Positions 2,561 to 31,311 of a stretch of 32,897 nucleotides of DNA are shown here, piece after piece. This DNA comes from Candidatus Sumerlaeota bacterium. GTDB taxonomy: Bacteria; Sumerlaeota; Sumerlaeia; JAPLSS01. Both the position numbers and the translations under genes were made by a program. Positions within the stretch are counted from its first letter, which is position 1; each line of letters begins with the position of its first letter. The DNA is taken from assembly GCA_026398515.1 (NCBI GenBank), contig JAPLSS010000758.1:1-32897 (forward strand). The letters run 5' to 3'. Under the pieces are notes generated by a model. It made no database searches. It was given only the letters and a program-made list of their open reading frames with translations, and was not told where the DNA came from.

Positions 2561-3529
2561 ATGAACCCCGCCGAACGGGCCCGCATTTCCCGCCTGCTGC
2601 TGGACGCGGTGTCGCGCAGCTTCGCGCTGGCCATTCCGTTGCTCGACGGCGCCAAACTGGCCGAAGTGGAGAACCAGTATCTCCTCGACCGGCTGTTGGA
2701 CACGGTCGAAGACTCGGATCACTCGCTCGAGGACAAGCGCCGGCTAATGGGCGGGTTCGTCCAGGCGTTGCGCGACGAATCGTCCTCGGGCCTGGCCGCC
2801 TTGCTGGCCGCGCTGCGCGAGCGGACGATCAACGAGCACGACAAGACGCTCATCGATCAATTCGACGCGGTCTTCGAAACGTTCCTTTCCTTCCCCGAAG
2901 CGGTCCGCGCCATCGCTGTCGAGCAGCTCGTCGAAATGGGCGAGGGAATGCTGGAGTTTCGCGAACGGCCGGTTCTTACGTTCGACGATCTCGATGAGTA
3001 TTGTTACTATGTCGCCGGCACGGTGGGCGTGTATCTTACCCGACTTGTAGAGATCAAAGACAACGTGGCGCTCCGCCGCGACCACGCCGTGCAATTCGGA
3101 AGATACCTTCAGAAAGTGAATATCATAAAGGACTTCTATAAAGACTATCTTGAAGGAAGGCTCTTTTGGCCGTGTGAGTTGTTCGATCATGCATCGCCGG
3201 AAGATATAATCAACCACAAATCGGATCGCGGGGAGAGAATGCGCATTCTTGACGCGATGACCGCTTCGGCGAAGCAGGAAGAGTCGGCCACCTTCGAATA
3301 CATCAAGGCCATCCCCGCGCATCTCAGGAATTACCGCAGTTTCTGCTTGATTCCGGCGCTCATGGCCCGCGAGACCCTGAAGCGCATGGAGGGGAATGAC
3401 GGCGTATTCTTCCGCGAAGAGGGGGTTAAGATCCCGCGCGCGCTCGTCATGGCCATCGTCGCCAAGGATCAAACCGGATATTACACAAACGCTCAGATAG
3501 ATAAGTATCTGGATACCAGTTTGGAGTGA
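2561..3529 (+). CDS. Squalene synthase, eukaryotic-like (squalene/phytoene synthase family)
   Basis: Predicted to condense two farnesyl diphosphates to squalene through presqualene diphosphate, using Mg2+ and NADPH. The 322-residue protein has [11 protein letters not shown] (18-28), the first aspartate motif DTVED (47-51), [17 protein letters not shown] (146-162) and the second motif with Asp191 and Asp195 in [14 protein letters not shown], followed by FWP. The YVAG and LQK-NII-D-LEGR-FWP pattern is that of eukaryotic squalene synthase. Bacterial routes usually use the split HpnC/HpnD/HpnE system. The C-terminal membrane anchor of eukaryotic enzymes is absent. The stretch 3040-3260 is visibly less GC-rich than the rest of the gene. 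No hopanoid or sterol gene is adjacent. Family assignment is secure; the exact product is inferred. Confidence 0.88.
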
Positions 3530-3577
3530 CGGCTTAAGCCGTTGCAATGAATACCGCCTAAAGGCGTCACTACGAAC
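3529..3577 (+). repeat. Two hairpin repeats, the second with the CACTACGAAC tail
   Basis: The first hairpin is the perfect 14-bp palindrome ACGGCTTAAGCCGT (3529-3542), which shares its first base with the stop codon of the squalene synthase gene. The second, CGCCT-AA-AGGCG (3555-3566), is followed by TCACTACGAAC (3567-3577). The tail ends 14 bases before the ATG at 3592, so the ribosome-binding site (AGGGAG) starts right after the repeat. Confidence 0.85.
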
Positions 3578-3591
3578 AAGGGAGCGATTGC

Positions 3592-6231
3592 ATGCGAACG
3601 ATGAACCTACTTGCTCTTGCGTCAATGTCATGTGTTGCATCGGTGTCCGCGGAAGAGGTTGCCCCACGAGCGTTCGCGCCGGCGAAGGTGGGGCAAGTCG
3701 CGGAATTCGCCCTCCCCGCGCCGACGAACGCTGACAATCCCTACGATCCCGCCGTCGCCGCGCTGGACGCGGAGTTCCTCGCGCCCTCCGGCAAGCGCAT
3801 CGTCACATCAGGCTTTTTCATGATCCCACAGAAACCCGTGACCGAACCACCCAAGGCGCCGATCGTCGCGCGTCTGCGAATCTACTTCAGCGCGCAGGAA
3901 CTGCCCGCCGGCGGACCGGTCGAACTCCTGTTCGACGACGTGCGGCTCGTCGACTCCGGGAAACGGGAGAGCGTCCTCGTCGACGATTGCGAGTCGGATC
4001 CGTCATGGAAGAGCCAGGGCGCGGAGATCGCCGCCGAGACCGGCCAGGCGCATTCCGGTCGGCAATCCTTGCGTGTTGCCGTGCAGAAGTCGGAAGGCAA
4101 GTCCTGGCCGGGCTTCGACCGAACCATTGCAAACGAGGATTGGTCGCGATTCGACGAACTGCGCTTCTGGCTGTATCCGGCGACGGCGTTGCGCCCGAAC
4201 ACGCTCGGCGTCGAGTGTTACACCATCGACGGGCAGAAGATCCAGAAGTCGGTCGACCTGGGCCTCTTCCGAACGGGGGAGTGGAAGGAAGTCGTCTGGC
4301 GCCTCCCCATTCCCCAGGAAACGCAGCGATTCGAGCCGGCGGGCGCCCCGCAATGGCGCGCGCGGCTCATGCCCCAGGAAGCCGGCGCGTGGAAGGCGCG
4401 TTTCACGTACCGCGACAATACTGGCGAGAAAGCATGGGACCTGCCGTTCAATGTCGCCGAGGGCCAGACCGACGGCTTCGTCCGCGTCAGCCCGCGCGAT
4501 AAACGCTACCTGGAGTTCGATTCCGGCAAACCGTTCTTCCCGGTCGGCATGAATCTCCTCGGGAAGGACTTGGTCCTCTATCGGCGCTACGTGGAGCCGC
4601 TCGCGCGGAATGGCGGCAATTACGTCCGCATTTGGTTGTCCATGAACAATCTCGGCTTCGAACTGGAGCCGAGTCGATACGCGCAGGACCGCGCGGCGCA
4701 GTTGGACGCGCTGTTCGATTACTTCCGCGAGCGCGGCGTCTACACGATGGTTTGCCTGAACGATTTCCGCGAAGTGGGCACGTTCGGCCAAGGCTCCTAC
4801 TGGGACAAGTCGGTGTTCAACGCCGCCGTCGGCGGCCCTTGCGCGCGGCCCGAAGACGTCTTTACCAATCCGGCGGCGATCCAACTATACGAACGCAAGC
4901 TGCGCTACGCCGTGGCGCGCTGGGGCGCATCGCCCGCGGTGATGGCCTGGGAGTTTTTCAACGAGTTCAACTACACCGAAGCGTGGAAGGCGAACCCGCA
5001 AGCCGCGCGCGACTGGCACGCAAAGATGGGCGCGTGCCTGCGATCCATCGATCCGTACGGACACCTCATCACCAGCAGTTTCAGCGGCCTGGAGGATGAT
5101 GCTTTGTGGACGCTGCCGGTCATGGACATCGTTCAGCGCCATTTCTACCTCCAGGCGGGCCGGTCGTTCACGGATTACGCGACCGCGGCGATTGCGTTCC
5201 TGGCGCCGCACGGGAAGCCGGCGCTCATCGGCGAGTTCGGCCGGAAGAAGAACGAACACGCCGACGCCGACGCGACGGGCGTCAGTCTGCACGACGGCCT
5301 GTGGGCGTCGGCGTTGTCCGGCGGCTGCGGCGCGGCGGCGACGTGGTGGTGGCAATGGCTGGAGCAATACAACCTGTGGAGTCAGTTTGCGCGCCTCCAG
5401 GAATTCCTCCAGGGCGTCGACTGGCCCGCCGAGCAGTTCGCCGCGCTGGAGGCCGATCTCGCCGCCCAGCCCGATCCGAAGAACGGCTTCGGCCCGCTGC
5501 GGATCGCGCCCGTCAAAGGCTCGTTCAAGCCCGCGCCGTTCAACCAGCCGGTGGAGGTCGCGCTGGGGTCGGACGGCAAGCCCGACCATCCGGAGTTGCT
5601 CGCCGCCCATTTGCACGGGCTGCGCAACCACAAGGAGTATCACAACCCGGTCACGTTCCACGCCGACTACGAGCGCGCGGGCGAATTCGCCGTCTTTGTC
5701 ACGCAGGTCTCGCAGTCCGGCGGCGCGGGGCTGACGATCTCGATCGACGGCGAACCGCGCCTGCAAAAGGATTTCCCGCTCGACCCGAAAGACCCCGCGG
5801 CGGCCGTCAAGACAACCGCGGAGTATGCGGGGCGCTATGCCGTGCCCGTGGCGCCGGGCCGGCACGCCATTCGCGTGGAGAACACGGGGAAAGACTGGCT
5901 GGTCGTCGGCCACTACGAGCTGGAGGGCGTGCGCGCGAGGCCGCCGCTGCGCCTGGTGGGGCTGCGCGGGCGGACGACGGCGCTCGTCTGGCTGCGCAAC
6001 ACGGCCAACCCGTGGGACAAGGCGATTCTCTCGCAGCCGGACGTGACGCTGCGCAACGTGTCGGCCACGTTGCGCGGCTTGCCGGCGGGGCGCTGGCGCA
6101 TCCGCCCGTTCGATCCATGGACGGGCCAGTGGGGGGCGGCCTCCGAAGCCGCCGTCGCCGCGGATGGTCGGTTGGCATTGTCGGCGGGCGAGTTGGCCAC
6201 GGATGCCGCTTGGCGGCTGGAGAGGAAATAG
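3592..6231 (+). CDS. Secreted glycoside hydrolase, DUF5060 + GH5-like barrel
   Basis: Probable exported endo-acting polysaccharide hydrolase of clan GH-A. The 879-residue protein starts with a signal peptide (about 1-20, ending SVSA). A DUF5060-like domain follows, split by what looks like an inserted carbohydrate-binding/CIA30-like beta-sandwich (about 105-250, with VDDCESD and FDELRFWLYP). The TIM barrel begins near KPFFPVGMN. The acid/base is Glu458 (WEFFNEFNY) and the nucleophile Glu548 (LIGEFGRK), about 90 residues apart as expected for strands 4 and 7. The C-terminal 300 residues look like beta-sandwich modules. The substrate cannot be fixed; beta-mannan or beta-glucan is plausible from the fold. 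AGGGAG lies upstream of the ATG. It opens a block of four secreted sugar-active genes. Confidence 0.85.
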   Translation: MRTMNLLALASMSCVASVSAEEVAPRAFAPAKVGQVAEFALPAPTNADNPYDPAVAALDAEFLAPSGKRIVTSGFFMIPQKPVTEPPKAPIVARLRIYFSAQELPAGGPVELLFDDVRLVDSGKRESVLVDDCESDPSWKSQGAEIAAETGQAHSGRQSLRVAVQKSEGKSWPGFDRTIANEDWSRFDELRFWLYPATALRPNTLGVECYTIDGQKIQKSVDLGLFRTGEWKEVVWRLPIPQETQRFEPAGAPQWRARLMPQEAGAWKARFTYRDNTGEKAWDLPFNVAEGQTDGFVRVSPRDKRYLEFDSGKPFFPVGMNLLGKDLVLYRRYVEPLARNGGNYVRIWLSMNNLGFELEPSRYAQDRAAQLDALFDYFRERGVYTMVCLNDFREVGTFGQGSYWDKSVFNAAVGGPCARPEDVFTNPAAIQLYERKLRYAVARWGASPAVMAWEFFNEFNYTEAWKANPQAARDWHAKMGACLRSIDPYGHLITSSFSGLEDDALWTLPVMDIVQRHFYLQAGRSFTDYATAAIAFLAPHGKPALIGEFGRKKNEHADADATGVSLHDGLWASALSGGCGAAATWWWQWLEQYNLWSQFARLQEFLQGVDWPAEQFAALEADLAAQPDPKNGFGPLRIAPVKGSFKPAPFNQPVEVALGSDGKPDHPELLAAHLHGLRNHKEYHNPVTFHADYERAGEFAVFVTQVSQSGGAGLTISIDGEPRLQKDFPLDPKDPAAAVKTTAEYAGRYAVPVAPGRHAIRVENTGKDWLVVGHYELEGVRARPPLRLVGLRGRTTALVWLRNTANPWDKAILSQPDVTLRNVSATLRGLPAGRWRIRPFDPWTGQWGAASEAAVAADGRLALSAGELATDAAWRLERK

Positions 6232-6469
6232 GGAGTGGCACAGGCAGTCGTGTCCGCGCGCTTCTGCGTCCAGAAGGGAATGAGAGGCTTCCGCGGAACA
6301 TGTGTCGCAGAGGAAGACGCGTGGATGACCTCCATCGGCCCCATGCTGGAGAAATACCAGCACATCTGCGCGAATCCCAAGGGCCAGGAGCGCGAGTCAG
6401 TCGACGCCTTGCACAAGTGGATTCAGCCGTTGCGGTGGAGCGACTGAAAGGCAAACAGCTGAGGGTTGA
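6232..6469. other. Intergenic stretch with a doubtful 70-codon frame
   Basis: Between two convergent hydrolase genes a GTG-started frame runs from 6235 to 6447 (70 codons). It has a GGAGAGG within the preceding gene as a possible ribosome-binding site. Its product matches nothing I recognise, has no signal peptide or repeat, and could be chance in GC-rich DNA or a gene remnant. Confidence 0.3.
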
Positions 6470-6493
6470 ACGGCTGAAGCCGTCGCTACGAAC
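6470..6493 (+). repeat. Hairpin repeat with CGCTACGAAC tail abutting a stop codon
   Basis: Perfect hairpin ACGGCT-GA-AGCCGT (6470-6483) followed by CGCTACGAAC (6484-6493). The next three bases (6494-6496) are the complement of the TGA stop of the minus-strand hydrolase, so on that strand the repeat begins at the first base after the stop codon. Member of the fixed-tail family seen at 3555, 21296, 25814 and 31282. Confidence 0.85.
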
Positions 6494-7618
6494 TCAATTC
6501 TGGTTTTTATCCCCACTGGCGTACAGCGCGGCATAATCCGCCAGAACTTGCTGAACCGCGGCGTCGGAACTGAGCACGTCCTCCTCATAGATCTCATACC
6601 ACGCCGGGCGGTCATTCCAGGCCTTGTCCAGCGCGTCGCGCAGGTTCGTGGCGGGATCGCTCTGGCCCATGCGCTTGTTCGGATCGTTCACCGCGGACCA
6701 GCCCATCTGATAGGCGATGTCGCATCCCGTCGTTCGTTTCAGGTTGGCCAGCAGGGCGCTGAAGTCCTGCCATTTCCGTTCGCTCGCTTTGGCCCGCGCC
6801 TCGCCGTAGCGCGACCACTTGGCTCCGCCAACCAACCCGTTGTTCTGGGCGATGAACCGCTCCGGCCCCACCTGCTGGCAGGTCGACTCCAGCAGGATCT
6901 CGCGCAGGGGGCGGTCGGTCTTGTCGTCAAACGGGAGGAACGCGTTCTGCCCCATCATCAGCGCGAGCCGCTTGGACGGGAACGACTCCAGGAACGCGTC
7001 GACGATCTTCTTGTGCGCTTCCTGGAGCGACGAGCGGTCGCACCCCAGCGAGACGAGCAGGTCGCGCCCTTCCTCGGCGTTGCCCCCCATATCCAGCCGC
7101 CCATATTCCCCCGTCGAGGCGTTCATCCCGGTGATTTTGACGGCGCTGAGGAGCGGCTCCTTGGCCACATGCTCTCCGGCGGCGCGAATCATCCCCAGCC
7201 AAGCCTCCAGGTAGATGGGATCGGTGGGAACGGGGGCCTTGCTCTTGGTCTCGCCCCCGCGCGCGTCGACGGGATAACTGCGAGCGCCCTTGGCATAGAC
7301 CCACTCCGGCGCGCTGATCCCGGGGTTGATATGAATGGAAAGGGCCTTGCCCGTCTTGCGGACGAGGGCCAGCGCCTTGTCCAGCGCGGTCCAGTCGTAT
7401 TGCCCCTCGGACGGCTCCAGCGTCTTCCAGTGGATCCTTGAGGCGAACCCGACGATGGAAGGATTCGCCACCGCCTTCTCATCCGTGTCGGTCCGGAAGT
7501 TGCCCAGCACGTACAACCCGCGCCGGAGCGATTCGTCCTGGCCCCCCTGCGCGCGATTCGCCGCCACGAGAAGAGCCAGTGCGGCAGCCCCGGCGACAAC
7601 CAGTGAGTTGGATCTCAT
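6494..7618 (-). CDS. Secreted TIM-barrel glycosidase-like protein
   Basis: A 374-residue exported protein, probably a glycoside hydrolase of clan GH-A. After a signal peptide (about 1-25) it has the first-strand pattern GFASRIHWKTLEPSEGQYDW, typical of GH42, GH5 and GH39 barrels, then SIHINPGISAPEWVY and further barrel strands. I could not assign the catalytic glutamates: no clear NE motif is present, and the Glu in ASTGEYGR is only one candidate. The start at 7618 has an excellent ribosome-binding site (AGGAGAG) and gives the signal peptide; in-frame codons further upstream do not. It converges on the GH5-like gene and diverges from the esterase. Family assignment is moderate, substrate unknown. 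Confidence 0.7.
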   Translation of the reverse strand: MRSNSLVVAGAAALALLVAANRAQGGQDESLRRGLYVLGNFRTDTDEKAVANPSIVGFASRIHWKTLEPSEGQYDWTALDKALALVRKTGKALSIHINPGISAPEWVYAKGARSYPVDARGGETKSKAPVPTDPIYLEAWLGMIRAAGEHVAKEPLLSAVKITGMNASTGEYGRLDMGGNAEEGRDLLVSLGCDRSSLQEAHKKIVDAFLESFPSKRLALMMGQNAFLPFDDKTDRPLREILLESTCQQVGPERFIAQNNGLVGGAKWSRYGEARAKASERKWQDFSALLANLKRTTGCDIAYQMGWSAVNDPNKRMGQSDPATNLRDALDKAWNDRPAWYEIYEEDVLSSDAAVQQVLADYAALYASGDKNQN

Positions 7619-7808
7619 GAAAGCGTCTCTCCTGTCCGCGATCCATCGTCGACGATTGCGCATCCTATTGCGCGATTGTCGGGCCGGCGCCAGACCTTTT
7701 CCGCGCGGCGCCGGCGCATCCCGCCGCCGCGGCCCTTGACAACGCGGGAGGCGGACAGGTTGACTTGCATGGGGAAATCCCAAGGCGAAAACCCCGAGAA
7801 GGAGGACA

Positions 7809-8696
7809 ATGGCTATGAATGAGATGTTTTGCACGGTCAGGCGATGGGCGATCGGCCCGTTTACGTTGATGGCGATTCTGCTTCCGTTCCACAGCGAAGC
7901 CGCCGCGGCGCAGGCGCAGGCCAAGGCGGCGTCGCAGCCGGCCTCGAAGGGAGCCGCGCGGGCGAAATCGAAAGCCGGGCCGCGGGCCGCGGCGACCACT
8001 AACAATCCGAATTTCCAGAAGCGCTCGTTCACGGGGAAGGATGGCGAGACGCTGGAGTACTGGCTGATGACGCCCAAGGACTACGATCCGAAGGAGAAGT
8101 ATCCGCTTCTGTTGGCGCTTCACGGCTCCGGCGGCACGACCCAAGCGCCGAGCGCGCTGGGGACCGACGAGATGCGCGAGAAACACCGCTGGTTCGTCAT
8201 GGCGCCCAAAGCCCCGGAGGGCTGGTCGTGGGCAAGTGCGCGCCTGTTCAGCGAACGCATCAGGGAGCTTAAGCCGCGCTTGCCGCTGGTGTTCGAGGCC
8301 ATGGACGCGTTGGAGAAAGAATTCTCGATCGACCCCCGGCGCCTGTACGTGACCGGCCAGTCGATGGGGGGCGTGGGAACCTATGGCGCGCTCGCGGCGC
8401 ATCCCGACTGGTTCGCCGCCGCGGCGCCGGTCTGCGGCGCGTGGGACGTGGAGGACGCGCCGAAATTCGCCGGCGCGCCGATCTGGATCTTCCATGGCGG
8501 CGCCGATCCCACCGTGCCGGTCGACTTCTCGCGCAACATGGTCGAGGCGCTGAAGAAGGCCGGCGCCTCGCCTCGCTACACCGAGTTCCCCGGCGTCGGA
8601 CACAACAGCTGGCTCAACGCCTATGCCATGCCGGAGTTATGGGACTGGATGGAGGCCCAGCGCCTGGCGGCCCCGGCCGGCGCGCCGGCGAAATAG
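7809..8696 (+). CDS. Secreted alpha/beta-hydrolase esterase (PHB-depolymerase/feruloyl-esterase-like)
   Basis: Probable exported serine esterase that removes acyl or feruloyl groups from polysaccharide or acts on similar esters. The 295-residue protein has a signal/anchor segment (about 12-34), a low-complexity Ala/Lys/Gln linker (about 34-65), then an alpha/beta-hydrolase core with oxyanion region LLALHGSGG, nucleophile Ser185 in GQSMGG, Asp233 in FHGGADPTVP and His265 in GVGHNSW. All three catalytic residues are present. AAGGAGG at 7799-7805 is only 3 bases from the ATG at 7809 but 9 bases from the ATG at 7815, so translation may start at 7815. Its position among glycosidases supports an accessory role in glycan breakdown. 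Confidence 0.82.
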   Translation: MAMNEMFCTVRRWAIGPFTLMAILLPFHSEAAAAQAQAKAASQPASKGAARAKSKAGPRAAATTNNPNFQKRSFTGKDGETLEYWLMTPKDYDPKEKYPLLLALHGSGGTTQAPSALGTDEMREKHRWFVMAPKAPEGWSWASARLFSERIRELKPRLPLVFEAMDALEKEFSIDPRRLYVTGQSMGGVGTYGALAAHPDWFAAAAPVCGAWDVEDAPKFAGAPIWIFHGGADPTVPVDFSRNMVEALKKAGASPRYTEFPGVGHNSWLNAYAMPELWDWMEAQRLAAPAGAPAK

Positions 8697-8754
8697 GCGA
8701 AGGCCCCGGCGCCGCGGTCCTTGCTTTTCCGCCGCGTCGGCTGTCGCCGTTCGC

Positions 8755-10263: not shown

Positions 10264-10376
10264 CTTGGAGCCCGCCGTGTAAAGATGATGCGTTGGCAAC
10301 ACGTGTCATATTCCAGGATCTAAGTACGCCCATTGCAAAATATGGTCACGAATTTCCGTATTCCCAAAGGGGAATG

Positions 10377-10556
10377 ATATGAATAGCCGTGGGCGTCAGC
10401 CCACGGACACGCGCCCGCCGAGGTCTCGACCCTGGAGGGGTCGAATAAGGCCGTTCGCCGCATTGTTCGACCCCTTCAGGGTCGGTTTCGTTGTTGGTCG
10501 CTGTTCCGCGGGCTGGCGCCCACGGCTATTCATATTCAACCCCTTGCGGGGTTACA
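10377..10556. repeat. Nested palindrome element, 180 bp
   Basis: The outer arms 10377-10407 and 10505-10535 are inverted copies of 31 bp with two mismatches. Inside, 10427-10443 and 10468-10484 form a second inverted pair of 17 bp with one mismatch, and each of these is also close to self-complementary (CGACCC...GGGTCG). Right of the outer arm lies AACCCC-TTGC-GGGGTT (10538-10553). The element occupies most of the 393-bp gap between two minus-strand genes. I see no gene in the rest of that gap (10264-10376 and 10557-10656). Confidence 0.85.
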
Positions 10557-10656
10557 AAACCAAACCTCAGTGTCGGCCAAATCGCTTTTCCCTAAAACAC
10601 ATGACCGAACTTTCCACCACGAGTACTAGGTTTTTGCCTTGGACTCCCACAGGGCG

Positions 10657-13041: not shown

Positions 13042-13071
13042 GACGCTTCCCACCAATGAAACAACCATTTT

Positions 13072-18870: not shown

Positions 18871-18877
18871 CAATCTT

Positions 18878-21295: not shown

Positions 21296-21319
21296 GTTCG
21301 TAGTGCGACCTTCAGGTCG
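21296..21319 (-). repeat. Hairpin repeat with CACTACGAAC tail at a gene junction
   Basis: On the minus strand: CGACCT-GA-AGGTCG followed by CACTACGAAC. On the plus strand the tail begins at the first base after the TGA of the sulfatase-fold gene. The stop codon of the broken PIN gene (21312-21314) lies inside the hairpin. The repeat therefore forms the exact junction between two convergent genes. Confidence 0.88.
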
Positions 21320-21611
21320 TAATCGTTTCAAACAGAAACGCTTCATCCATGGCGTCCGGAAGCGGGGCGGCCAACGGGGCGCCGGACACGAGCACACCCG
21401 TGTGCATCAGGTGGTCGATAAAGGCCGCCACCGACCCTGCATCGAATCCGAAGCGGGGCCGCTTGAGGACCTCCGTGTACTCGGCAATCAGGCGGGCATC
21501 CAGGCAAAGCCGGACCTCGCCGGACACGACCCAGCGGACGATGTCGCCGGGCGGCGAGAAGGGGGACAAGAAGCCCGACACGAGAACGTTGGTGTCGAGC
21601 ACGATGTTCAT
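21312..21611 (-). pseudogene. PIN-domain toxin, 3' end replaced by a repeat
   Basis: A PIN-domain ribonuclease toxin of the VapC/COG1569 type, 99 residues long instead of about 135-140. MNIVLDTNVLVSGFL (Asp6) and AEYTEVLKRPRF (Glu44/Glu47) are intact, and the expected PD-x-DEAFLE segment starts correctly. After EAFL it runs into FETITT and a stop provided by the hairpin repeat at 21296-21319. The last conserved acidic residue and final helices are lost, so the product is probably inactive. The start at 21611 gives the classical N-terminus and overlaps the old antitoxin stop as ATGA. Confidence 0.85.
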
Positions 21612-21807
21612 CGCGATCGCTTCCGGCGCACGGCGGCGATTTCGGATTCGATCTCTTCCGCGCTCAGGCGATCCAATCCGCGTTCCACCGATTGCCGCTG
21701 CATTCGAACCACCGCCGGTTGGTGACCACCAGTTCACGCTCGCGCGCCAAATCCTTCCAGACTTGGGCGGACTTCCCACGCAAATCCCGGACGGTCAGGA
21801 ATTTCAT
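21608..21807 (-). pseudogene. Phd/YefM-type antitoxin, internal deletion and frameshift
   Basis: The N-terminus MKFLTVRDLRGKSAQVWKDL and ARERELVVTN is that of a Phd/YefM antitoxin. The frame then shifts, and translation from the ATG at 21807 stops at 21664 after 47 residues. In another frame the expected C-terminus is still present down to 21608: MQRQSVERGLDRLSAEEIE and then SEIAAVRRKRSR, with its stop overlapping the toxin ATG. About 40 residues, including the usual NGRPIALL core, are missing between the two parts. GGAGGGG still precedes the start. Both halves of the toxin-antitoxin locus are thus broken. Confidence 0.85.
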
Positions 21808-21831
21808 CGCGCCCCTCCATTGTGATGCAAT

Positions 21832-21859
21832 AGTGTACACAGTTGCGGACCAGTGTCAA
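21832..21859 (-). promoter_or_regulatory. Promoter and YefM-type operator of the decayed toxin-antitoxin locus
   Basis: On the minus strand TTGACA (21859-21854) is followed after 16 bases by TACACT (21837-21832). The palindrome GTGTACAC (21833-21840) overlaps the -10 box. TGTACA is the reported core of YefM operator boxes, which fits autorepression by a Phd/YefM antitoxin. The regulatory site appears better kept than the genes. Confidence 0.55.
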
Positions 21860-21894
21860 GGAAAGCGGCGCATCCCTGGGAAATCCGGAGGGCG

Positions 21895-23379: not shown

Positions 23380-23595
23380 TTGCGCCCCTCCGGAAGCAAT
23401 GAGGAATCGCGAGTATAGAGTCCGCCTGAAGGTGGCTGCGGAAGGACTTCCTCAGAAGGACCGATGACCCGGCGGAAGATGTCCGCCTCATCTCCCATGT
23501 CCGCATTATGTGGAGTTCAGGTGTGCCGCTCAATGACCAAATGTCGTGGGTGGCGACGACCGCAGGCGTTTCGGGCATATCCGCCTTACCAAAAC
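23380..23595. other. Divergent intergenic DNA, no gene seen
   Basis: First part of the 332-bp gap between the propeller gene and the beta-galactosidase gene. It should hold the propeller promoter. I find no convincing boxes, coding frame or repeat in this part. Confidence 0.5.
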
Positions 23596-23620
23596 ACGCA
23601 GGCTGGAAAGCCTACGCCAC
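23596..23620 (+). repeat. AGGCT-type hairpin repeat
   Basis: GCAGGCT-GGAA-AGCCTACGCCAC: stem AGGCT/AGCCT (23600-23604 and 23609-23613) with tail ACGCCAC. It belongs to the same family as the cluster at 2361-2500. Confidence 0.75.
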
Positions 23621-23652
23621 TCGGCCTCCACTTCTACCACGATCCATCGCCC

Positions 23653-23681
23653 TTGACCTTCGCCGCCGGCGCCCGTATCGG
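23653..23681 (+). promoter_or_regulatory. Possible promoter of the GH42 gene
   Basis: TTGACC (23653-23658), 17-base spacer, TATCGG (23676-23681), 31 bases before the ATG. The -10 box is poor, so this is a weak call. Confidence 0.3.
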
Positions 23682-23711
23682 TATGCCCACTCTGGCGAAA
23701 GGCGAGAACGG

Positions 23712-25700
23712 ATGCTGCGCAGGAACTTTCACCTGGGTTTCGACTATTATCCCGAGCACTGGGAAGAGGAGATGTGGCCGGAGGATCTCAGGCTGATGCG
23801 CGAGGCGGGCGTGACTTGCGTGCGCATCGCCGAATACGCCTGGTCGCGCATGGAGCCCGAGGAGGGGCGGTTCGAGTTCGATTGGCTCGACCGCTTCTAC
23901 GCGCTGGCCGAGAAGAACGACATCCGCGTCATCCTCGGCACGCCGACCTCCGCCGCGCCGCCGTGGGCGTGGCGGAAATACCCCGACCTTGTGTTGCTGC
24001 AGGAGGACGGGCAGCGCTGTTGCACCACGTCGCGGCGCTACAACTGCCCCACCAGCCCCGACTACCTGCGCCTGTGCGACCGGATCATCGAGGAGATGGC
24101 CAAACGCTATGGCCAGCATCCTCTGACGATCGGCTGGCAGACGGACAACGAGATCAGTGGCCAGGTTTGCTTTTGCGAGCATTGCCAGACGGCGATGCGC
24201 GAGCATCTCAAGGAGAAGTTCGGCACGGTCGAGGCGCTGAATCAGGCGATGGGGTTGGTCTTCTGGGCGCACGAAGTCACGGACTGGGACCAGGTCGTCT
24301 ATCCGCGCCCCGGCATGGACCACGCGCACCCGAGCCTCCGGCTGGAGATGCATCGCTTCTTCTCGCGCCAGTGGTCGCGGTTCGCCCAGAGGCAAACCGA
24401 CTTGATCCGCAAGCGCTCGCCGGGCCGTTTCGTCACCCACAACCTGGCGGGTTACGGGAGTCGGGTCGATCTGTTCGATTTCGCCGCGGCGCACGATTTC
24501 TTGTCGATGGACCTGTATCCCAAGGCGATGATCGATCCGCCGGGGCGCGTCGCCCTTGCCAACGACGTCACGTTCAGCGCGCAGAACCGGCCGCATTGGG
24601 TCCTCGAATTGCAGACGGGCACGCCGTGCACAAAGTTTTACAAGGCTCCCGTGCCGCGCGAGGGGCAGTTGCGGTTGTGGGCGCACCAATGCGCCGCGCA
24701 CGGGGCCGAGGGCGTCGTCTATTTCCGCTGGCGCAAGAGTCCCGTCGGCCAGGAGATGTTCGGCAACGGCCTGTTGGATCAGGACGCCCGCCCGCGCCGC
24801 CAGTATGCCGAGATTCAGAAACTGGGCGAGGATTTCCGGAAACTGGCCGAGGCGCTGCCGGGCTATCATCCGGCGTCCGAAGTGGCGGTGGTCTATGATT
24901 TCGCCGAGCGCATCAACGCTGAGATCCACTCGTTCGCCATCGATACCGACTATTGGAACCATTTGCGCGAGTGGTGGGAGGCGGCGCGCGCTCTGGGATT
25001 GAACGTCCGCTTCGTGCGGCCGACCGACGACCTGCGCCCGTTCCGGTTGGTCCTGGCGCCGCAGCAATACACGACCTCGCCGGAGATCGTGGCCAACTTC
25101 ACGAACTACGTGCGCGAGGGCGGGACGCTCGTCGGCGCGCATCGCATGGGGTGGTTCGACGTCCATGGCAAGCCGTCGCGCCAGACGCTGCCCGGCGGCA
25201 TGACGGCGCTCTTTGGCGCGGAGGTCGAGGAATACGAGCGCGTGATGGACGTGAATCCAAACCGCGTCGTTTTTAATAAGGAGATCGGCCCGCCCGCGGA
25301 GTGCCGCGGGTGGAATTACTACTTGAACAGTCTTGTAGCGAAGCCGCTCGGGACGTTTGAGTCGCAGTTCTATGCCGGGCGCATGGCCGCGAGCGAGCAT
25401 TCGTTCGGCAAGGGCCGCGCGATTTACGTCGGCACGCAGCTCGGCCCGGAGCCGTTGAAGCGATTGGTCGCCTGGCTCGGCCGCGGCGTCGGGCTGCCGT
25501 TGATCGCGGAGAACTGGCCGAAGGACGTGGAACTCGCGCGTCTGACGGACTTCAACCTTGATGAGGTCTGGGCGCTCCTGAATCACTCTCACGAGCCGCG
25601 CGCGGTCGAATTGCCCAAGCCGGCGACCGATTTGCTGTCGAAAGAAGAATCGCAACGCTTTGAGATGGCGCCGCTCAGCGCGAGGTGGGTGAGATTGTGA
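23712..25700 (+). CDS. GH42 beta-galactosidase
   Basis: A 662-residue family GH42 enzyme that removes terminal beta-galactose from oligosaccharides. FHLGFDYYPEHW (6-17) and CVRIAEYAWSRMEPEEGRF are the family-typical start. Acid/base Glu147 is in WQTDNEISG and nucleophile Glu299 in WVLELQTG. The Zn-binding cysteine cluster is present (RCC...NC and CFCEHC). A Rossmann-like trimerisation domain follows (about 390-600), then a small C-terminal beta-domain. Length fits the family. There is no signal peptide, so it likely works in the cytoplasm on imported oligosaccharides. The start at 23712 gives the family-typical N-terminus; the upstream in-frame extension runs through a repeat and is unlikely to be coding. 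Its stop codon is fused to a large inverted repeat. Confidence 0.93.
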   Translation: MLRRNFHLGFDYYPEHWEEEMWPEDLRLMREAGVTCVRIAEYAWSRMEPEEGRFEFDWLDRFYALAEKNDIRVILGTPTSAAPPWAWRKYPDLVLLQEDGQRCCTTSRRYNCPTSPDYLRLCDRIIEEMAKRYGQHPLTIGWQTDNEISGQVCFCEHCQTAMREHLKEKFGTVEALNQAMGLVFWAHEVTDWDQVVYPRPGMDHAHPSLRLEMHRFFSRQWSRFAQRQTDLIRKRSPGRFVTHNLAGYGSRVDLFDFAAAHDFLSMDLYPKAMIDPPGRVALANDVTFSAQNRPHWVLELQTGTPCTKFYKAPVPREGQLRLWAHQCAAHGAEGVVYFRWRKSPVGQEMFGNGLLDQDARPRRQYAEIQKLGEDFRKLAEALPGYHPASEVAVVYDFAERINAEIHSFAIDTDYWNHLREWWEAARALGLNVRFVRPTDDLRPFRLVLAPQQYTTSPEIVANFTNYVREGGTLVGAHRMGWFDVHGKPSRQTLPGGMTALFGAEVEEYERVMDVNPNRVVFNKEIGPPAECRGWNYYLNSLVAKPLGTFESQFYAGRMAASEHSFGKGRAIYVGTQLGPEPLKRLVAWLGRGVGLPLIAENWPKDVELARLTDFNLDEVWALLNHSHEPRAVELPKPATDLLSKEESQRFEMAPLSARWVRL

Positions 25701-25790
25701 AGTATGGAGTCCCGCCTTCAGGCGGAATGCTGGGAGTCGAGGTGATGCTGGCCTCCAACGATTCCGCCTGAAGGCGGGACTCCATACTTC
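25699..25790. repeat. GGAGTCCCGCC inverted repeat, copy 1 (perfect 30-bp arms)
   Basis: Arms 25699-25728 and 25761-25790 pair perfectly over 30 bp around a 32-base centre. The left arm starts within the TGA stop of the GH42 gene. Each arm contains its own hairpin CCGCCT-(GA/TC)-AGGCGG next to the tail GGACTCCATAC. Could act as a terminator or mRNA 3' end, but no T-run follows. Confidence 0.9.
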
Positions 25791-25813
25791 CGGTTTACGG
25801 GCGAGGGTGGGAA

Positions 25814-25837
25814 ACGCCTAGCGGCGTCACTACGAAC
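25814..25837 (+). repeat. Hairpin repeat with CACTACGAAC tail upstream of the IMPase gene
   Basis: ACGCC-TAGC-GGCGT (25814-25827) followed by CACTACGAAC (25828-25837). The tail ends 14 bases before the ATG at 25852, the same distance as at the 3592 gene, with GAGGAG in between. Confidence 0.85.
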
Positions 25838-25851
25838 TTGTGAGGAGTGGG

Positions 25852-26742
25852 ATGGGACTTTCTCAGGAACAGCTGAAACACTGCCTGAACGCCGCGATCG
25901 CCGCCGCGTACCAGGCCGGCGCGCGGGTCATGAAGCACTATGGAACCGCCGTCGACGTCGGCTCGAAGGGCGGCCTGTTCATCGCCGGCGACGTCGTCAC
26001 CGTCGCCGACCGCGAGGCGCAGGACGCGGTCTTCGGCGTGTTGCGCGGGTTCGACGACTCGATCGGCATGTTGTCCGAAGAGGAAGAACCCGCGGCGGCC
26101 AAGTCGCGCTTCGAGAAGGAGTGCTTCTGGTGCATCGACCCGCTCGACGGCACGCTGCCCTTCCTCGAGCGCACCAACGGCTTCGCGATCTCCATCGGGC
26201 TGGTGTCCAAGGAGGGCGAGCCGCTGATGGGCGTTGTCTATGCGCCGGCGTTCAGCGACCTCTATTGCGCCATCCAGGGCGGCCCGGCGCTGAAAAACGG
26301 CCAGCCGCTCCGCATCGGCGAGCCGAAGGGGACGTTCCACCTCTCGACCAGCGCCAACGACGCCGTCACGCCCGAACGCAACCGGATGCTCAACTTCGTC
26401 ATGGAAGGCCTGGCGAAGCTCGATCCGAAGCGCAAGATGAACCCCGTCCTGCACGCCGGCGCGGTGGTCAAGGCGTGCTGGATCATCGAAAATCCGCCCG
26501 CCGCCTACATCACCTTTCCGCGTCCCGAAGGCGGCGTCAGCGTGTGGGACTGCGCCGCCACGGCTTGCATCGTCAAGGCGGCCGGCGGGTGGGTCAGCGA
26601 TTTTTTTGGCAACCCGTTGGAATTGAACCGCCGCGAAAGCACGTACATGCACCATCGTGGGCTGGTCTATGCGTCGAACGAAACGGTTGCCCGCACGGCC
26701 ATCGAGCGTTACGCGGAGTGGCAGAAAACGAAGGAATCCTGA
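25852..26742 (+). CDS. Inositol monophosphatase family phosphatase (CysQ-like)
   Basis: A 296-residue Mg2+-dependent phosphatase of the IMPase/CysQ superfamily. The metal-binding set is visible: LSEEEEP, Asp96 and Asp99 in WCIDPLDGTLPF, and Asp233 in VSVWDCAATACIVKAAGG. Candidate substrates are 3'-phosphoadenosine 5'-phosphate, inositol phosphates or fructose 1,6-bisphosphate; the sequence alone does not choose. The start at 25852 follows GAGGAG; a GTG at 25840 is the alternative and would place the site inside the coding region. It lies between two repeat clusters and shares no operon with its neighbours. Confidence 0.85.
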   Translation: MGLSQEQLKHCLNAAIAAAYQAGARVMKHYGTAVDVGSKGGLFIAGDVVTVADREAQDAVFGVLRGFDDSIGMLSEEEEPAAAKSRFEKECFWCIDPLDGTLPFLERTNGFAISIGLVSKEGEPLMGVVYAPAFSDLYCAIQGGPALKNGQPLRIGEPKGTFHLSTSANDAVTPERNRMLNFVMEGLAKLDPKRKMNPVLHAGAVVKACWIIENPPAAYITFPRPEGGVSVWDCAATACIVKAAGGWVSDFFGNPLELNRRESTYMHHRGLVYASNETVARTAIERYAEWQKTKES

Positions 26743-26756
26743 TGAGGACGCCCCAG

Positions 26757-26864
26757 GTATGGAGTCCCGCCTTTAAGCGGTTCGTTAGCGGAATGCTGCG
26801 AACGGAGACCGGGCCTGTCATCGCACATTCCGCTAACGAACCGCCTAAAGGCGGGACTCCATAC
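26757..26864. repeat. GGAGTCCCGCC inverted repeat, copy 2 (39-bp arms)
   Basis: Arms 26757-26795 and 26826-26864 are inverted copies of 39 bp with one mismatch around a 30-base centre. The outer part (GTATGGAGTCCCGCC) is identical to copy 1, but the inner part (GGTTCGTTAGCGG) is different and again matched on both arms. It starts 14 bases after the stop of the phosphatase gene. Confidence 0.9.
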
Positions 26865-26898
26865 TCTCTGGCCGCGTGTGTTGTTGTTTTCTATCGTT

Positions 26899-26919
26899 CA
26901 ATCGGCAATCGGCAATCAC
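26899..26919. repeat. Short tandem repeat CAATCGG
   Basis: CAATCGG occurs twice in tandem (26899-26912), followed by a partial third copy CAATCAC. It overlaps the stop codon of the UroD-like gene (26916-26918). Confidence 0.6.
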
Positions 26920-28034
26920 AACTTCCCCCTCAGCAGCTTCTCCTTGCTCTCCAGGTAATACTGAAAATTCGGCCAACTGATGTCGGGCGGGACGGTGTGA
27001 TCGACCGTGGGGATGAAGCCGCCCTCTTCGATCAACGGGAGGAGCGTGCGCAGATGCGCGTCGATGGCCTTGGGCCCCTTGGCCAACTCGCGCTTGTCCA
27101 CGCCGCCCCACAGCCGCAGCGTCTTTCCGAACTTCTTCCGCAGTTTCAGCGGGTCCTGGTCCGCCGCGCGCTCCAGCGGCCACAGCGTGTCCACCCCGGC
27201 GTCCATCAGGAGCGGCACGAGCGCCTCCGGATTGCCGTCGGTATCGACGTTGATATACCGCACCCCCTTGGAGCGGCAGAACTCCACCACCCGCTTCATG
27301 TGCGGGAAGATGAATCGGCGATACGTGTCGGGGCTGAGTAGCGGGCCGCTCTTCATCGACATGTCTTCGTTGATGCAGACGTAGTCGACGGCGATCTCGT
27401 CGAGGACAGGCCGCGCCGCCTCGATCAGGAAATCGCCCCAGAATTCCATCATGTCATGCATCATGCCGGGTTGGTCGTACCAGGCGTACGACAGGTTCTC
27501 CGTGCCCATCCAGACGCGCGCGATCCAGTAGAACCCCAGGGTCGAGCAGTTGGGGCCGAAGATCAGCGGATGATCGCGCGTCTTCCAGCGTTCGACGTGG
27601 GAGCGCCAGTCCTTGGCCAGACGCGAAGGCTCTCGCGGATCGTAGCGCTTCTTCATCGCCTGCCAATCCTGCATGGTCTCCACGGGAAACCGCAGGTATT
27701 GGTCCATCGACATGCGCGCGCCGCCGATGGAGCCTTCCTTGAGCGCCCGGCGGACCCGCCCGCCCGTGTCGCGGATCACGACGGTCCGCTCGTCTTCTTC
27801 GAGGATCTCCTGCGGGAACGGCGGGACCATGTGGCTATGGAATGGGATGAACTCGCGGGGGTCCATGCCGAGGGCCTCTTCGCCCTTGAACCAGTTCCAA
27901 TGGAATTTCCTCCCATCCAAACCTTCCGCCGCCCAGCGCTCGCGCGTCTGCGCCCACGCCCCGGCCTCCCAGTTGGGCACGCGGTCCACGGGTTTGTAGT
28001 CCATCACGGCAAGGAAACGCTCCCGAGGGTTCAT
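26916..28034 (-). CDS. Uroporphyrinogen decarboxylase (URO-D) family protein, not HemE
   Basis: A 372-residue protein of the URO-D/MtaA/CmuA superfamily, starting MNPRERFLAVMDYKPVDRVP, which is the usual opening of catabolic URO-D-like proteins. FGPNCSTLGFYWIARVWMG, the DYVCINEDMSMKSGPLLSP segment and RYINVDTDGNPEALVPLLMD follow the barrel order. The late GVDKRELAKG and DHTVPPDISW are also family-typical. True HemE has a different N-terminus with R-x-P-x-W-x-M-R-Q-A-G, absent here. Members of this group act in methyl or corrinoid transfer or are uncharacterised. The start at 28034 follows GAGGTGA. No corrinoid protein or methyltransferase partner is in the window, so function is open. Confidence 0.82.
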   Translation of the reverse strand: MNPRERFLAVMDYKPVDRVPNWEAGAWAQTRERWAAEGLDGRKFHWNWFKGEEALGMDPREFIPFHSHMVPPFPQEILEEDERTVVIRDTGGRVRRALKEGSIGGARMSMDQYLRFPVETMQDWQAMKKRYDPREPSRLAKDWRSHVERWKTRDHPLIFGPNCSTLGFYWIARVWMGTENLSYAWYDQPGMMHDMMEFWGDFLIEAARPVLDEIAVDYVCINEDMSMKSGPLLSPDTYRRFIFPHMKRVVEFCRSKGVRYINVDTDGNPEALVPLLMDAGVDTLWPLERAADQDPLKLRKKFGKTLRLWGGVDKRELAKGPKAIDAHLRTLLPLIEEGGFIPTVDHTVPPDISWPNFQYYLESKEKLLRGKL

Positions 28035-28126
28035 CGGCTCACCTCGACGCATTTGGTGTTTCACGGAACGACCATCTGCCAAGAGAGCATGACGGCGGGC
28101 TGATTTCCACAAGGAAAGAGCTGTGA

Positions 28127-28212
28127 GCATGGGGTCCCGCCTTTAGGCGGATTGTTGCGAATCGAGTCAAGGCGGATCATCGTGAATTCCGCCTGAAGGC
28201 GGGCCTCCATAC
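28127..28212. repeat. GGAGTCCCGCC inverted repeat, copy 3 (degenerate)
   Basis: Arms 28127-28153 and 28186-28212 pair over 27 bp with five mismatches. The tail reads GGCCTCCATAC on the right arm and GCATGGGGTCCC on the left. The inner hairpin CCGCCT-GA-AGGCGG is intact on the right. It lies in the divergent gap (28035-28322), where no gene is visible. Confidence 0.8.
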
Positions 28213-28322
28213 CCTCTATCTGAAAGGTCTTCCATTCCTTGGCATTCTTTTCGCTTTGCCTTATTGATCGAATTGAACGAGGCTGACTTGTCGGCCATCC
28301 AAGACGGGACGGAGAGATTCCC

Positions 28323-29936
28323 ATGATTGTCAGGCGGCGGTGCGTCACCCTTCTCATTCTCACGATCACGCTGGCGGCGGCTCTGGCTTGGCCGCTGGAG
28401 GGCAAGAAAGCCAAGGCGCGGACAACGGCCGCGGCCGCGGCCGCGAAATCTCCAAGGAACCCCGACGAGACGTCTCTGGTCGTTCAACAAGGCGAGGCGG
28501 TCGACTTGGCGCTCTTCGGCGTCAACGACGACTGGAGCGGTGGGGTCGCCGATCTCGACAACCGCTTCCTGACCGCCGGCATGCGCGCTCTGGGCGTCAG
28601 CGCCGTGCGGTTCGTCGGCGCGGCGGCCGGCAGCCTGTGGGATTGGCAGGAGGCGCGGTTCGTGGAGACGGAAGCCCTGAAGGAGTTCCCGCCGCAATGG
28701 CTGGATTTCTACGCCGGGATGCGGAAGGCCGTCGCCGAGGCGCCGGGCGGGGGATTCACCCTGGATCGCTTCGTCGGCTTCGTCTCGCGCATCGAGGCGC
28801 AGCCCGTCTGGGTGTTCAACCTGGCGACCCCTCCTTCGGAGCGCGCCGAGCGCATGGCCGACTACCTGGCCACGAAGAAGTTTCCCGCGCCGTTCCTGGA
28901 ATTGGGAAGCGATTACAACCAGCCGCAGTTCCGGAGCATCTTCGCCTCCAGCGAGGACTATATCCAGCGAGCCCAGTCCCTGTTCGCCCGCCTTCGCAGT
29001 TTCCTGCCGGAGGCGAAGATCGGCGTCGTCGCGGATGGCGATCCGCTGTTCGAGCCGCAAACCGCCCAGGCGAAAGACGGGTGGAATGACGGACTTCTGG
29101 CGCATCGCGACCGCTACGACGCGTGGGCGGTCCATTGCCGGGGAATCCGCCCCGAGACCCTGCGGGCGTTCCCCCGGGACGAATGGACCAAGGTCGTTCT
29201 GGCCTGGCCCGACGCCGCCATCGACAACGCCGCGGAGAAAAGCCGCCGCGACTACGACGCGCTGCCGCTCTGGCTGAGCGATTACAGCATCGGCTACGCG
29301 GCGAAGCCCGGCGCGCCTCAGGGCGGGGACGCCGCCGAGGCGTTCGCGCAAGGCCTCGCGGATTCGCCTTTGAACGCCTTGCGCGTCGCGGCGTACCTGA
29401 TCGCCGGAGCGCAGAACAACGACGTCTGGGACGTGATGCTCTATCACAACCTGACGGGGACCGCCGGCCAGGGCATGTTGCGCCCCACCGACAACGGATT
29501 CCAGGTCAACCCGGCCGGCCAGGTCTTCGCGCACCTGGCCATGCTGGCGCGGCAGGCTAAGCGGATGCACAACGTGCGGACCGACGGCGGGCCGGGCCTC
29601 GATCTGGCGTTGCTGGGCGAGGAGGGCCGCCACGCCTTGCAGGCCGCCGCCTTCTCCAACGACGACATGCTGGCGCTGGCGATCCTCAACCGCGCCGCCA
29701 AGCCCATCCCCATCGTTCTGGCGAAGACCGAGGGCTTCGAGAACGCGAAGCGGACCGTGTATTCCGCCGAAGTTGCGCCCAAGGAGACATGGGCGGCGCT
29801 GACCGTCCAGCAGACGGAAACCTTCCCTTGGCCGGGGCCGATGCAGCCGGACACGCAGGACCTGGCCCTTTCCGAAGGCGCGCCGTTGCGCACGGAGATT
29901 CCCGGCTACAGTTTGGTGATTCTGGAATTGCGCTGA
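28323..29936 (+). CDS. Secreted clan GH-A-like protein with Asp at both catalytic positions
   Basis: A 537-residue exported protein. It has a signal peptide (about 1-22), a low-complexity Lys/Ala linker (about 27-45), a TIM barrel (about 60-390) and a C-terminal beta-domain. The layout resembles GH51, GH39, GH30 or GH79 enzymes. At the end of strand 4, where those have E-I-G-N-E, this protein reads LELGSD (Asp197). At strand 7, where they have a T-E-Y/F, it reads LWLSDYSIG (Asp320). Both are Asp in place of the expected Glu. It may be a non-catalytic binder or an altered enzyme; my alignment is by eye. GGAGAG precedes the ATG. It converges on the nitroreductase gene. Confidence 0.7.
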   Translation: MIVRRRCVTLLILTITLAAALAWPLEGKKAKARTTAAAAAAKSPRNPDETSLVVQQGEAVDLALFGVNDDWSGGVADLDNRFLTAGMRALGVSAVRFVGAAAGSLWDWQEARFVETEALKEFPPQWLDFYAGMRKAVAEAPGGGFTLDRFVGFVSRIEAQPVWVFNLATPPSERAERMADYLATKKFPAPFLELGSDYNQPQFRSIFASSEDYIQRAQSLFARLRSFLPEAKIGVVADGDPLFEPQTAQAKDGWNDGLLAHRDRYDAWAVHCRGIRPETLRAFPRDEWTKVVLAWPDAAIDNAAEKSRRDYDALPLWLSDYSIGYAAKPGAPQGGDAAEAFAQGLADSPLNALRVAAYLIAGAQNNDVWDVMLYHNLTGTAGQGMLRPTDNGFQVNPAGQVFAHLAMLARQAKRMHNVRTDGGPGLDLALLGEEGRHALQAAAFSNDDMLALAILNRAAKPIPIVLAKTEGFENAKRTVYSAEVAPKETWAALTVQQTETFPWPGPMQPDTQDLALSEGAPLRTEIPGYSLVILELR

Positions 29937-29954
29937 ACGGCTGGGCGCGAGAAC

Positions 29955-30530
29955 TCAGGCGGGGCCTTTTCGCTCCCCGTCTTTGGCGGAACCCGCCGCC
30001 CCATACCGATTAAACCACGCGCGCTCCTCGAACGGCTTCTTCGTCTGGCGTGGCGCGTTGGGATCGGCCGGGCGGCCGAGGGGCAGGATGACGCGAACCG
30101 TCTTCCCTTCCGGCGCGCCGAGGAGCCGGGCGATCGTCTCTCCGCGCTCGTCGCCGCGCAGCCAGCCGTCGACCCACACGGTGGCGTAGCCCAGCGCGGT
30201 GGCGGCCAACAGGATGTTCTCGACCGCGGCGGAGCAGTCCTCCACTTGGAACGACAGGCCCTCGTAGACGCCTATCGGCGCCTTGTCGACGAGGCAGGCG
30301 ATGTAGGCTCTGGCCTGCCGCATGGCGACGTTCTTGGGGTGCATCGCCTGGATCTGTTGGCGCAAGGCGGGGTCGTCGACGATCACGAAGGTCGTAGTCT
30401 GCTCATTGCAGCCCGACGGCGCCAGGAGTCCGGCCTGCACGATCCGGCGCAGGTCCTCGCGCGGCACGGGCTGGTCCAGAAACGGCCCGCGGTAGCTGAA
30501 GCGATGGGCGATGGCGTCGAAGAGATCCAT
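29955..30530 (-). CDS. Nitroreductase-family FMN oxidoreductase
   Basis: A 191-residue nitroreductase-fold flavoprotein. MDLFDAIAHRFSYRGPFLDQPVP (FMN-phosphate contacts around Arg10-Arg14), LLAPSGCNEQTTTFVIVDD and the later AAVENILLAATALGYATVWVDG segment follow the family order; the C-terminal part has ILPLGRPADP and a Lys/Glu-rich tail. It probably reduces quinones, nitro groups or flavin with NAD(P)H; the natural substrate is unknown. The start at 30530 has GGGAGG upstream. It converges with the GH-A-like gene, 18 bases apart, and diverges from rpmE. Confidence 0.9.
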   Translation of the reverse strand: MDLFDAIAHRFSYRGPFLDQPVPREDLRRIVQAGLLAPSGCNEQTTTFVIVDDPALRQQIQAMHPKNVAMRQARAYIACLVDKAPIGVYEGLSFQVEDCSAAVENILLAATALGYATVWVDGWLRGDERGETIARLLGAPEGKTVRVILPLGRPADPNAPRQTKKPFEERAWFNRYGAAGSAKDGERKGPA

Positions 30531-30653
30531 GTGTTCCTCCCGGGGCGATGGGTGAGCGTGAACCGCCAGTATGGCGGATTCCTCGAAGCCCGCAACGGAA
30601 TACGACGTGCGAATAGGGTATGCCGGCGGCGTTCGGTCTATCCGCGACTGGAA

Positions 30654-30681
30654 CGCCTACGCTACTACGCCTACGCTACTG
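30654..30681 (+). repeat. 14-bp tandem repeat related to the AGGCT-type repeats
   Basis: CGCCTACGCTACTA is present twice in a row (30654-30667 and 30668-30681, last base different). The preceding TGGAA and the word GCCTACGC match the right half of the AGGCT-type hairpins, so this looks like a truncated and duplicated copy. It ends 4 bases before the rpmE -35 box. Confidence 0.65.
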
Positions 30682-30685
30682 GGGC

Positions 30686-30714
30686 TTGACACGGGCGGTT
30701 GGGCGTCGTAGCGT
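30686..30714 (+). promoter_or_regulatory. Putative rpmE promoter
   Basis: Perfect -35 TTGACA (30686-30691), 17-base spacer, TAGCGT (30709-30714). The leader to the rpmE ATG would be about 95 bases. Confidence 0.45.
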
Positions 30715-30814
30715 TCCGCTCCGCTCTTGAAAAACACGGCGGCGCGGAGGGGTTTTTGGCCGCGGTTCGACGTGCGTGAACCAAGGGCGAATGCAGACGG
30801 AGGGTTTCCCGGCA

Positions 30815-31018
30815 ATGCGCAAAGACATTCATCCGAAATACACGCTGACGACCATCGCCTGCGTGTGCGGCAACAAGTTCCAGACCCGTTCGACGAAGCC
30901 GAACCAGCGTCTGGACATCTGCTCGAAGTGTCACCCGTTCTTCACCGGCCAGCAGAAGTACGTCGACACGGCCGGGCGCGTGGAGAAGTTCTTCGCGCGC
31001 TACGGCGAGCAAAGCTGA
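30815..31018 (+). CDS. rpmE: 50S ribosomal protein L31, zinc-binding (C+) form
   Basis: A 67-residue ribosomal protein of the large subunit. MRKDIHPKY is the classical L31 start, and the zinc ligands Cys16 and Cys18 (CVCG) and Cys36 and Cys39 (CSKC) are all present, followed by HPFFTG. The ATG at 30815 is preceded by GGAGGG at a good distance; a frame extension upstream to 30776 is not needed. It has its own terminator. Confidence 0.95.
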
Positions 31019-31044
31019 TTTTTCCGGGGCAAGTCGAATCACCG

Positions 31045-31087
31045 CCGGGCGGCGGGTCGGGATTTCCGACCCGCCGCCCGGTTTCTT
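31045..31087 (+). terminator. Rho-independent terminator of rpmE
   Basis: Perfect 16-bp GC-rich stem (31045-31060 with 31066-31081), 5-base loop GATTT, followed by TTTCTT. Confidence 0.88.
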
Positions 31088-31281
31088 GCGCGGAGGCCAG
31101 GAAGCACGCCGCTCTTGCCCCTCGGCTCCGCTCGGGAACTGCCTTTGAGGCCGGCTTTGGTTCGCCCATGCTCCGCTCCGAGTTCATCACTGAGAGTCCG
31201 CCCCGGCACGGCGGCAGGGCGGACCGATTCTTTTCCCCCTTGCGTTGCTGAGCGGCGTTTTTGACAATGCGCAACTTCGTA
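31088..31281. other. Intergenic DNA between rpmE terminator and tyrS
   Basis: No gene seen. A perfect TTGACA at 31261-31266 could be a tyrS -35 box, but no acceptable -10 box lies 16-18 bases further on, where a hairpin repeat begins. Confidence 0.4.
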
Positions 31282-31311
31282 CGACCTGGAAGTCGAGGTC
31301 GCACTACGAAC
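31282..31311 (+). repeat. Hairpin repeat with CACTACGAAC tail upstream of tyrS
   Basis: CGACCT-GGAAGTCG-AGGTCG (31282-31301; a second pairing CGAC-CTGGAA-GTCG is also possible) followed by CACTACGAAC (31302-31311). The tail ends 17 bases before the tyrS ATG. Confidence 0.85.

Follow-up and report, generated by a model that had tools for sequence, protein, structure and literature searches.

Hairpin repeats with a constant tag and several stems in a Candidatus Sumerlaeota genome: a probable GTAG-type REP family and its tie to one RAYT clade

Five short hairpins in a 32,897-nt stretch of contig JAPLSS010000758.1 from a Candidatus Sumerlaeota bacterium (GCA_026398515.1; the window, hereafter) raise the question of how one constant tail can follow stems that differ in sequence and are nevertheless self-complementary. 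Our analysis indicates that they very probably belong to a GTAG-type family of repetitive extragenic palindromes (REPs), set mostly in outward-facing doublets (REPINs, REP doublets forming hairpins) and presumably spread by a REP-associated tyrosine transposase (RAYT) that would read the tag, the loop and the shape of the hairpin. The kind of repeat is already known, and for the window itself the outcome is an ordinary, well-understood repeat class; the apparent novelties are this genome's family, the association across phyla between one clade of RAYTs and a constant tag and loop whose stems are free to differ, and the doublets composed of two different stems.

Copy number, anatomy and stem types

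The tail CRCTACGAAC has 144 exact matches in the 7.61-Mb assembly against 28 for a reversed-pattern control, with 73 against 7 for the form CACTACGAAC and 71 against 21 for the form CGCTACGAAC. These counts were taken from searches of the whole assembly, separately from the contigs examined around the copies (about 1.14 Mb, non-redundant); the latter were chosen for carrying the tail, so that densities in them are biased, and they contain 170 elements under relaxed criteria. In 54 of the 142 tails with complete upstream sequence, a perfectly paired stem of 5 bp or more stands 0-1 nt from the tail, whereas shuffled upstream bases yield on average 0.7 and 0.8 for the two tail forms (about 1.5 summed). 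No match was obtained in the plasmid collection searched, and the tail was not clearly enriched over control in 40 same-class or more distant relatives.

When the tail strand is replaced by its complement, the element has the form GTTC-GTAG-(T/C)G-5-bp stem-TT(C/T)A-stem, and in this reading the hairpin of each copy is preceded by the unpaired tag GTTCGTAG or its GGAG counterpart; tail variants extend to CTCCGAAC, corresponding to the GGAG tag. The stems form three discrete types, A (CGACC, 62 copies), B (ACGCC, 38) and C (ACGGC, 18), and a fourth, related type E (CCGCC) occurs mostly with the tail GACTCCATAC. A total of 47 copies, the most divergent of which may in part be chance tails, deviate from their type; 45 of them carry one-sided changes (a mismatch or G.T), and only two, CGGCC/GGCCG and ACGAC/GTCGT, are compensated. 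Paired change thus separates the founder types from one another, and copying does not regenerate an arm.

A preliminary description of the window had reported five hairpin copies with a shared tail, preceded by stems that differ and whose two sides change together. The copies are indeed present, and self-complementarity before the tail is far above shuffled controls throughout the genome. The five stems, in contrast, represent only three types (A, A, B, B and C), the one given as CGCCT being type B with a one-sided mutation of the outer pair, and joint change of the two sides holds between types and fails within them.

The elements are arranged regularly. Neighbours no more than 150 bp apart form 56 pairs, of which 51 point their tags outward, five are tandem and none is inward. 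The outward doublets have spacers of 9-55 bp and the compositions AA (24), BC (13), BB (7), EE (6) and CC (1), with no A-B or A-C combination among the 51; this is the layout of REPINs and of bacterial interspersed mosaic elements (BIMEs). Taken as single-stranded DNA, two example doublets form much better folds than their shuffled versions do (z -6.3 and -10.7). With gene context taken from crude calls by a simple codon-usage gene caller, the 170 elements fall in tandem gaps (84), convergent gaps (38), divergent gaps (11), genes (15) and contig edges (22). The tandem, convergent and divergent gaps available number 410, 119 and 87, respectively, so divergent gaps are under-used, as already published for REPs. 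The tail is directed toward a gene end in 81 cases and toward a gene start in 52.

The copies and related elements of the window are listed below.

Approximately 3522-3544, minus strand (located by eye): type C hairpin ACGGC-TTAA-GCCGT with a GGAG-type tag and tail CACTCCAAAC; partner of the next copy.
3554-3577, plus strand: type B (ACGCC) REP carrying a mutation in its outer pair, CCGCC-TAAA-GGCGT, tail CACTACGAAC; the right-hand member of the doublet.
6470-6493, plus strand: type C REP, ACGGC-TGAA-GCCGT, tail CGCTACGAAC; abuts the 3' end of a convergent gene (6494-8077, minus strand).
21296-21319, minus strand: type A REP, CGACC-TGAA-GGTCG, tail CACTACGAAC.
25702-25787: related type E doublet, CCGCC-TGAA-GGCGG, tail GACTCCATAC, tags outward.
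25814-25837, plus strand: type B REP, ACGCC-TAGC-GGCGT, tail CACTACGAAC; a type E doublet ends 26 bp before it.
26757-26864: related type E doublet, tags outward.
28127-28212: related type E doublet with outward tags and partly decayed tails.
31282-31311, plus strand: type A REP with an enlarged 8-nt loop, CGACCT-GGAAGTCG-AGGTCG, tail CACTACGAAC.

The doublet at about 3522-3577 folds better than shuffles (z = -2.6), and the 8-nt loop of the 31282-31311 copy probably arose by an internal duplication. The three type E doublets represent a second REP type of the window, CCGCC-T(G/A)AA-GGCGG with the tail GACTCCATAC (GGAG tag). The stop codon of the minus-strand open reading frame 21312-21779 is a TGA (21312-21314) in the loop of the 21296-21319 copy, and insertion of the REP may have supplied the 3' end of this frame. 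Degenerate 9-bp repeats such as GGACCTATA, possibly a target array, directly precede type A hairpins at several loci (L081, L056, L006, L140 and L077); such a repeat was found within 90 bp of 16 of the 77 type A copies, compared with 1 of the 93 other copies and 0.7% of random stretches.

RAYT genes in other phyla and in this genome

The same hairpin and tail, with other stems, occur in many phyla among the matches listed in a pattern search of the whole collection. That search fixed the 3' arm and the inner base; the argument rests on the set of sequences flanking RAYT genes, in which the stem was unconstrained. Three RAYTs from different lineages, all flanked by this tail, share one clade with an HYH motif, named A1 here. 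Two members score 83.7 and 97.1 bits, and another 79.3, just below the cut-off of 80, against the model NF047646 (REP_Tyr_transpos, Y1 HUH), and a search with a model built from the three RAYTs recovered full-length members in about 14 genomes. Beside nearly all clade A1 genes stand CT(A/C)C(G/A)A(A/G)C tails with TTYA loops and differing stems. When every such tail in the clade A1 loci was counted, with no hairpin required, 40 of 56 distinct elements proved to be fully paired, against 3.2 (maximum 10) with shuffled arms. These fully paired elements include 14 distinct stems, and 39 of the 40 have the loop TTYA; pair types differ at all five stem positions, least at the loop-closing C-G.

The association is also seen in a tree of 72 RAYTs, where all 13 tail-positive genes belong to one clade of 16 (support 99/97) and the tail label requires four changes versus 12.2 for shuffled labels. 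Different stems may accompany a single gene: one RAYT gene of Anabaena azotica has the stems AGCAC, AGGAC, AGTGC and AGGGC, and at another locus (L366) a CCGGC stem and a CGCC-type stem stand on both sides of the RAYT gene. In the Anaerolineae sequence CP059258 (L364, 2120-2861), some 20 REPs, whose stems are GCGAC and ACGAC, form an array immediately next to a clade A1 RAYT.

The genome of the window has five Pfam Y1_Tnp matches, and the REP-specific model NF047646 identifies three RAYTs, on C782, C752 and C676. The C782 gene is intact (L119, 4230-5030) and has outward doublets of GTTCCTGGGAGC-GCCGACGTCCTCGTCGGC (GCCGACG...) on either side, and its locus is a complete, textbook REPtron with its own REP family; the tag there begins with the same GTTC as that of the window family. 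The repeat of C752 (L356) is CACAGGC...GCCTGTG-CCACC (GCCACC tail); that of C676 (L357), which is apparently broken by a stop codon, is CCCGGC...GCCGGG-GCTACTG (GCTACTG tail). None of the three is flanked by the REP family of the window, and both C782 and C752 lie outside clade A1 in the tree. The Y1_Tnp matches on C460, C289, C888 and C893 were considered as partners and rejected, being IS200-like with adjoining hairpins that lack the window tail. Three of these (C289, C460 and C893; L032, L031 and L034) are flanked by other long hairpins, among them CCGTGGGCTGGCGCCCACGG-CTATTCATAT on both sides of C289.

Proposed mechanism and alternative explanations

We propose that a RAYT (TnpA-REP, a Y1 HUH enzyme) would bind the element in single-stranded form and recognise it by its GTAG guide, its TTYA loop and a hairpin free of breaks; the doublet would then be cut and rejoined, or copied. 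The candidate substrate of the clade A1 enzyme is GTTCGTAGTG-hairpin single-stranded DNA. The stem sequence would barely be read, so that any paired stem beside a fit tag and loop could found a new subfamily; broken stems would not be mobilised, and inserted copies would decay without repair. It is this filter against broken stems that would make the stems look covarying, and the covarying look of REP stems is thereby explained with neither a selected RNA nor repair of an arm. Of the possibilities raised in the preliminary description, selection of single-stranded DNA is the one supported, in the form of recognition by shape, and the nearest parallel named there, the REPs moved by TnpA-REP proteins, turned out to be the right class: the copies are REPs of the GTAG type, and RAYTs elsewhere have this tag and loop at their flanks.

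Several points weigh against this reading. Transposition by clade A1 is deduced from architecture and association; the clade was seeded with RAYTs picked for such flanks, in genomes picked for the repeat; and two of its 16 members have no such flank (one of them at a contig end), while one has a variant tag. In addition, the mobilising enzyme is unseen in the genome of the window: a search for a RAYT or other Y1 HUH gene there had been recommended, and three RAYTs exist, but no clade A1 member was found in this assembly, which is 92.6% complete. The genome may have lost the enzyme, or the gene may lie in the unassembled part. Abundant REP classes are known in strains without a cognate RAYT (Nunvar 2013, PMC3686654), and thus a RAYT-less family would not be unusual.

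A variant of the REP explanation, in which one of the genome's own RAYTs (C782, C752 or C676) acts across families in place of a lost clade A1 enzyme, could draw on the intact C782 with its outward doublets and shared GTTC; since each of the three genes is flanked by its own, different REP, and C782 and C752 do not belong to the clade associated with the tag and loop of the window, we consider it unlikely. We give little credence to a structured RNA (an mRNA stabiliser, attenuator, terminator or cis-regulator) with pairing selected after transcription, although three of the window's five copies precede a predicted same-strand start codon by no more than about 70 nt, the intergenic sites are few in divergent gaps and frequent in tandem and convergent ones, and REPs in general can act in mRNA. 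The window yields no Rfam match above the gathering score, most deviating copies within types have their pairing broken on one side with almost no compensation, the stem is not followed by the T run of an intrinsic terminator, the elements take both orientations to genes, and in other phyla this tag and loop are found beside RAYT genes.

Regeneration of the second arm from the first during copying, for instance by hairpin-primed synthesis, had likewise been suggested, and perfect stems of differing sequence behind one tail are what it would produce. The abundance of one-sided changes left uncorrected, and the fact that stems form discrete types and not a continuum, make it very improbable. Finally, 1.2% of random positions in this 65% GC genome qualify as a stem of at least 5 bp, so short GC-rich palindromes might be expected beside a common 10-mer by chance; given the excess of both tails and stems over their controls and the regular outward doublets, the probability of this explanation is negligible.

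Returning to mobilisation by a RAYT, a broader generalization can be put forward only tentatively. One RAYT clade, found in Cyanobacteria, Chloroflexi, Planctomycetota and Verrucomicrobia/Lentisphaerae, possibly reads only the tag and the loop (GYTYG[T/G]AG, TTYA), the stem being essentially a free label that lineages swap repeatedly, with doublets often bearing two different stems, comparable to the two ends, left and right, of an element of the IS200 type. If this is true, stem turnover founds separate mobile populations under one unchanged enzyme. The elements form a natural stem-swap series that covers at least 14 different paired stems with tag and loop unchanged, and one RAYT clade in several phyla; the series fits in-vitro results according to which TnpA-REP recognises tag, loop and the shape of the hairpin, and it makes possible a direct test with one enzyme and many stems.

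Comparison with known REP systems

The preliminary description assumed that REP stems are conserved in sequence and named no described family with a constant tail and interchangeable stems; both statements are at variance with the literature. A REP has been defined as a palindrome whose base composition varies, together with a conserved GT(A/G)G tetranucleotide, and orthologous RAYTs are flanked by different stems (Nunvar 2013, PMC3686654); "selection for complementary mutations" had been proposed earlier (Nunvar 2010, PMC2817692). The REP classes of Pseudomonas and Stenotrophomonas, including the "orthoswitch" (PMC2817692, PMC3686654), likewise combine a constant head, several stems and orthologous RAYTs; their stems vary within genera, whereas the present tag and loop occur with different stems across several phyla. 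A full-text literature search for the literal tag TTCGTAGT returned no relevant paper.

According to Di Nocera 2013 (PMC3733652), GTAG repeats comprise 24 families whose stem residues take alternative, mutually complementary forms, and are reported in Cyanobacteria, Chloroflexi and the PVC (Planctomycetes-Verrucomicrobia-Chlamydiae) group. As described there, this superfamily, which includes SMAG and the REPs of Pseudomonas and E. coli, shares with our family the unpaired GTAG (here also GGAG) beside a short palindrome, the subfamilies with alternative stems, the outward dimers and the intergenic sites. Conservation of the GTTC extension and the TTYA loop across phyla is not stated in the text consulted, and the 24 families were compared by description only.

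A functional parallel is REP-Mb of Marinomonas (Corneloup 2021, PMC8266576), which has GTAG, a 2-nt spacer and a 5-bp perfect stem. Three of its four loop bases (T-T-N-A) are essential, and a stem mismatch seriously lowers cutting, while the effect of exchanging the whole stem for its complement is moderate. The REPtron Mb of Marinomonas sp. MWYL1 has the same spacer, stem length and TTNA-type loop as the elements described here, the comparison being one of architecture and loop only. The REPINs of Bertels and Rainey 2011 (PMC3116915) similarly have as their apparent unit a pair of inverted REPs no more than tens of bases apart. Unlike them, more than half of the present doublets made of types B and C join two different stems, as do the Y-Z BIMEs of E. 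coli.

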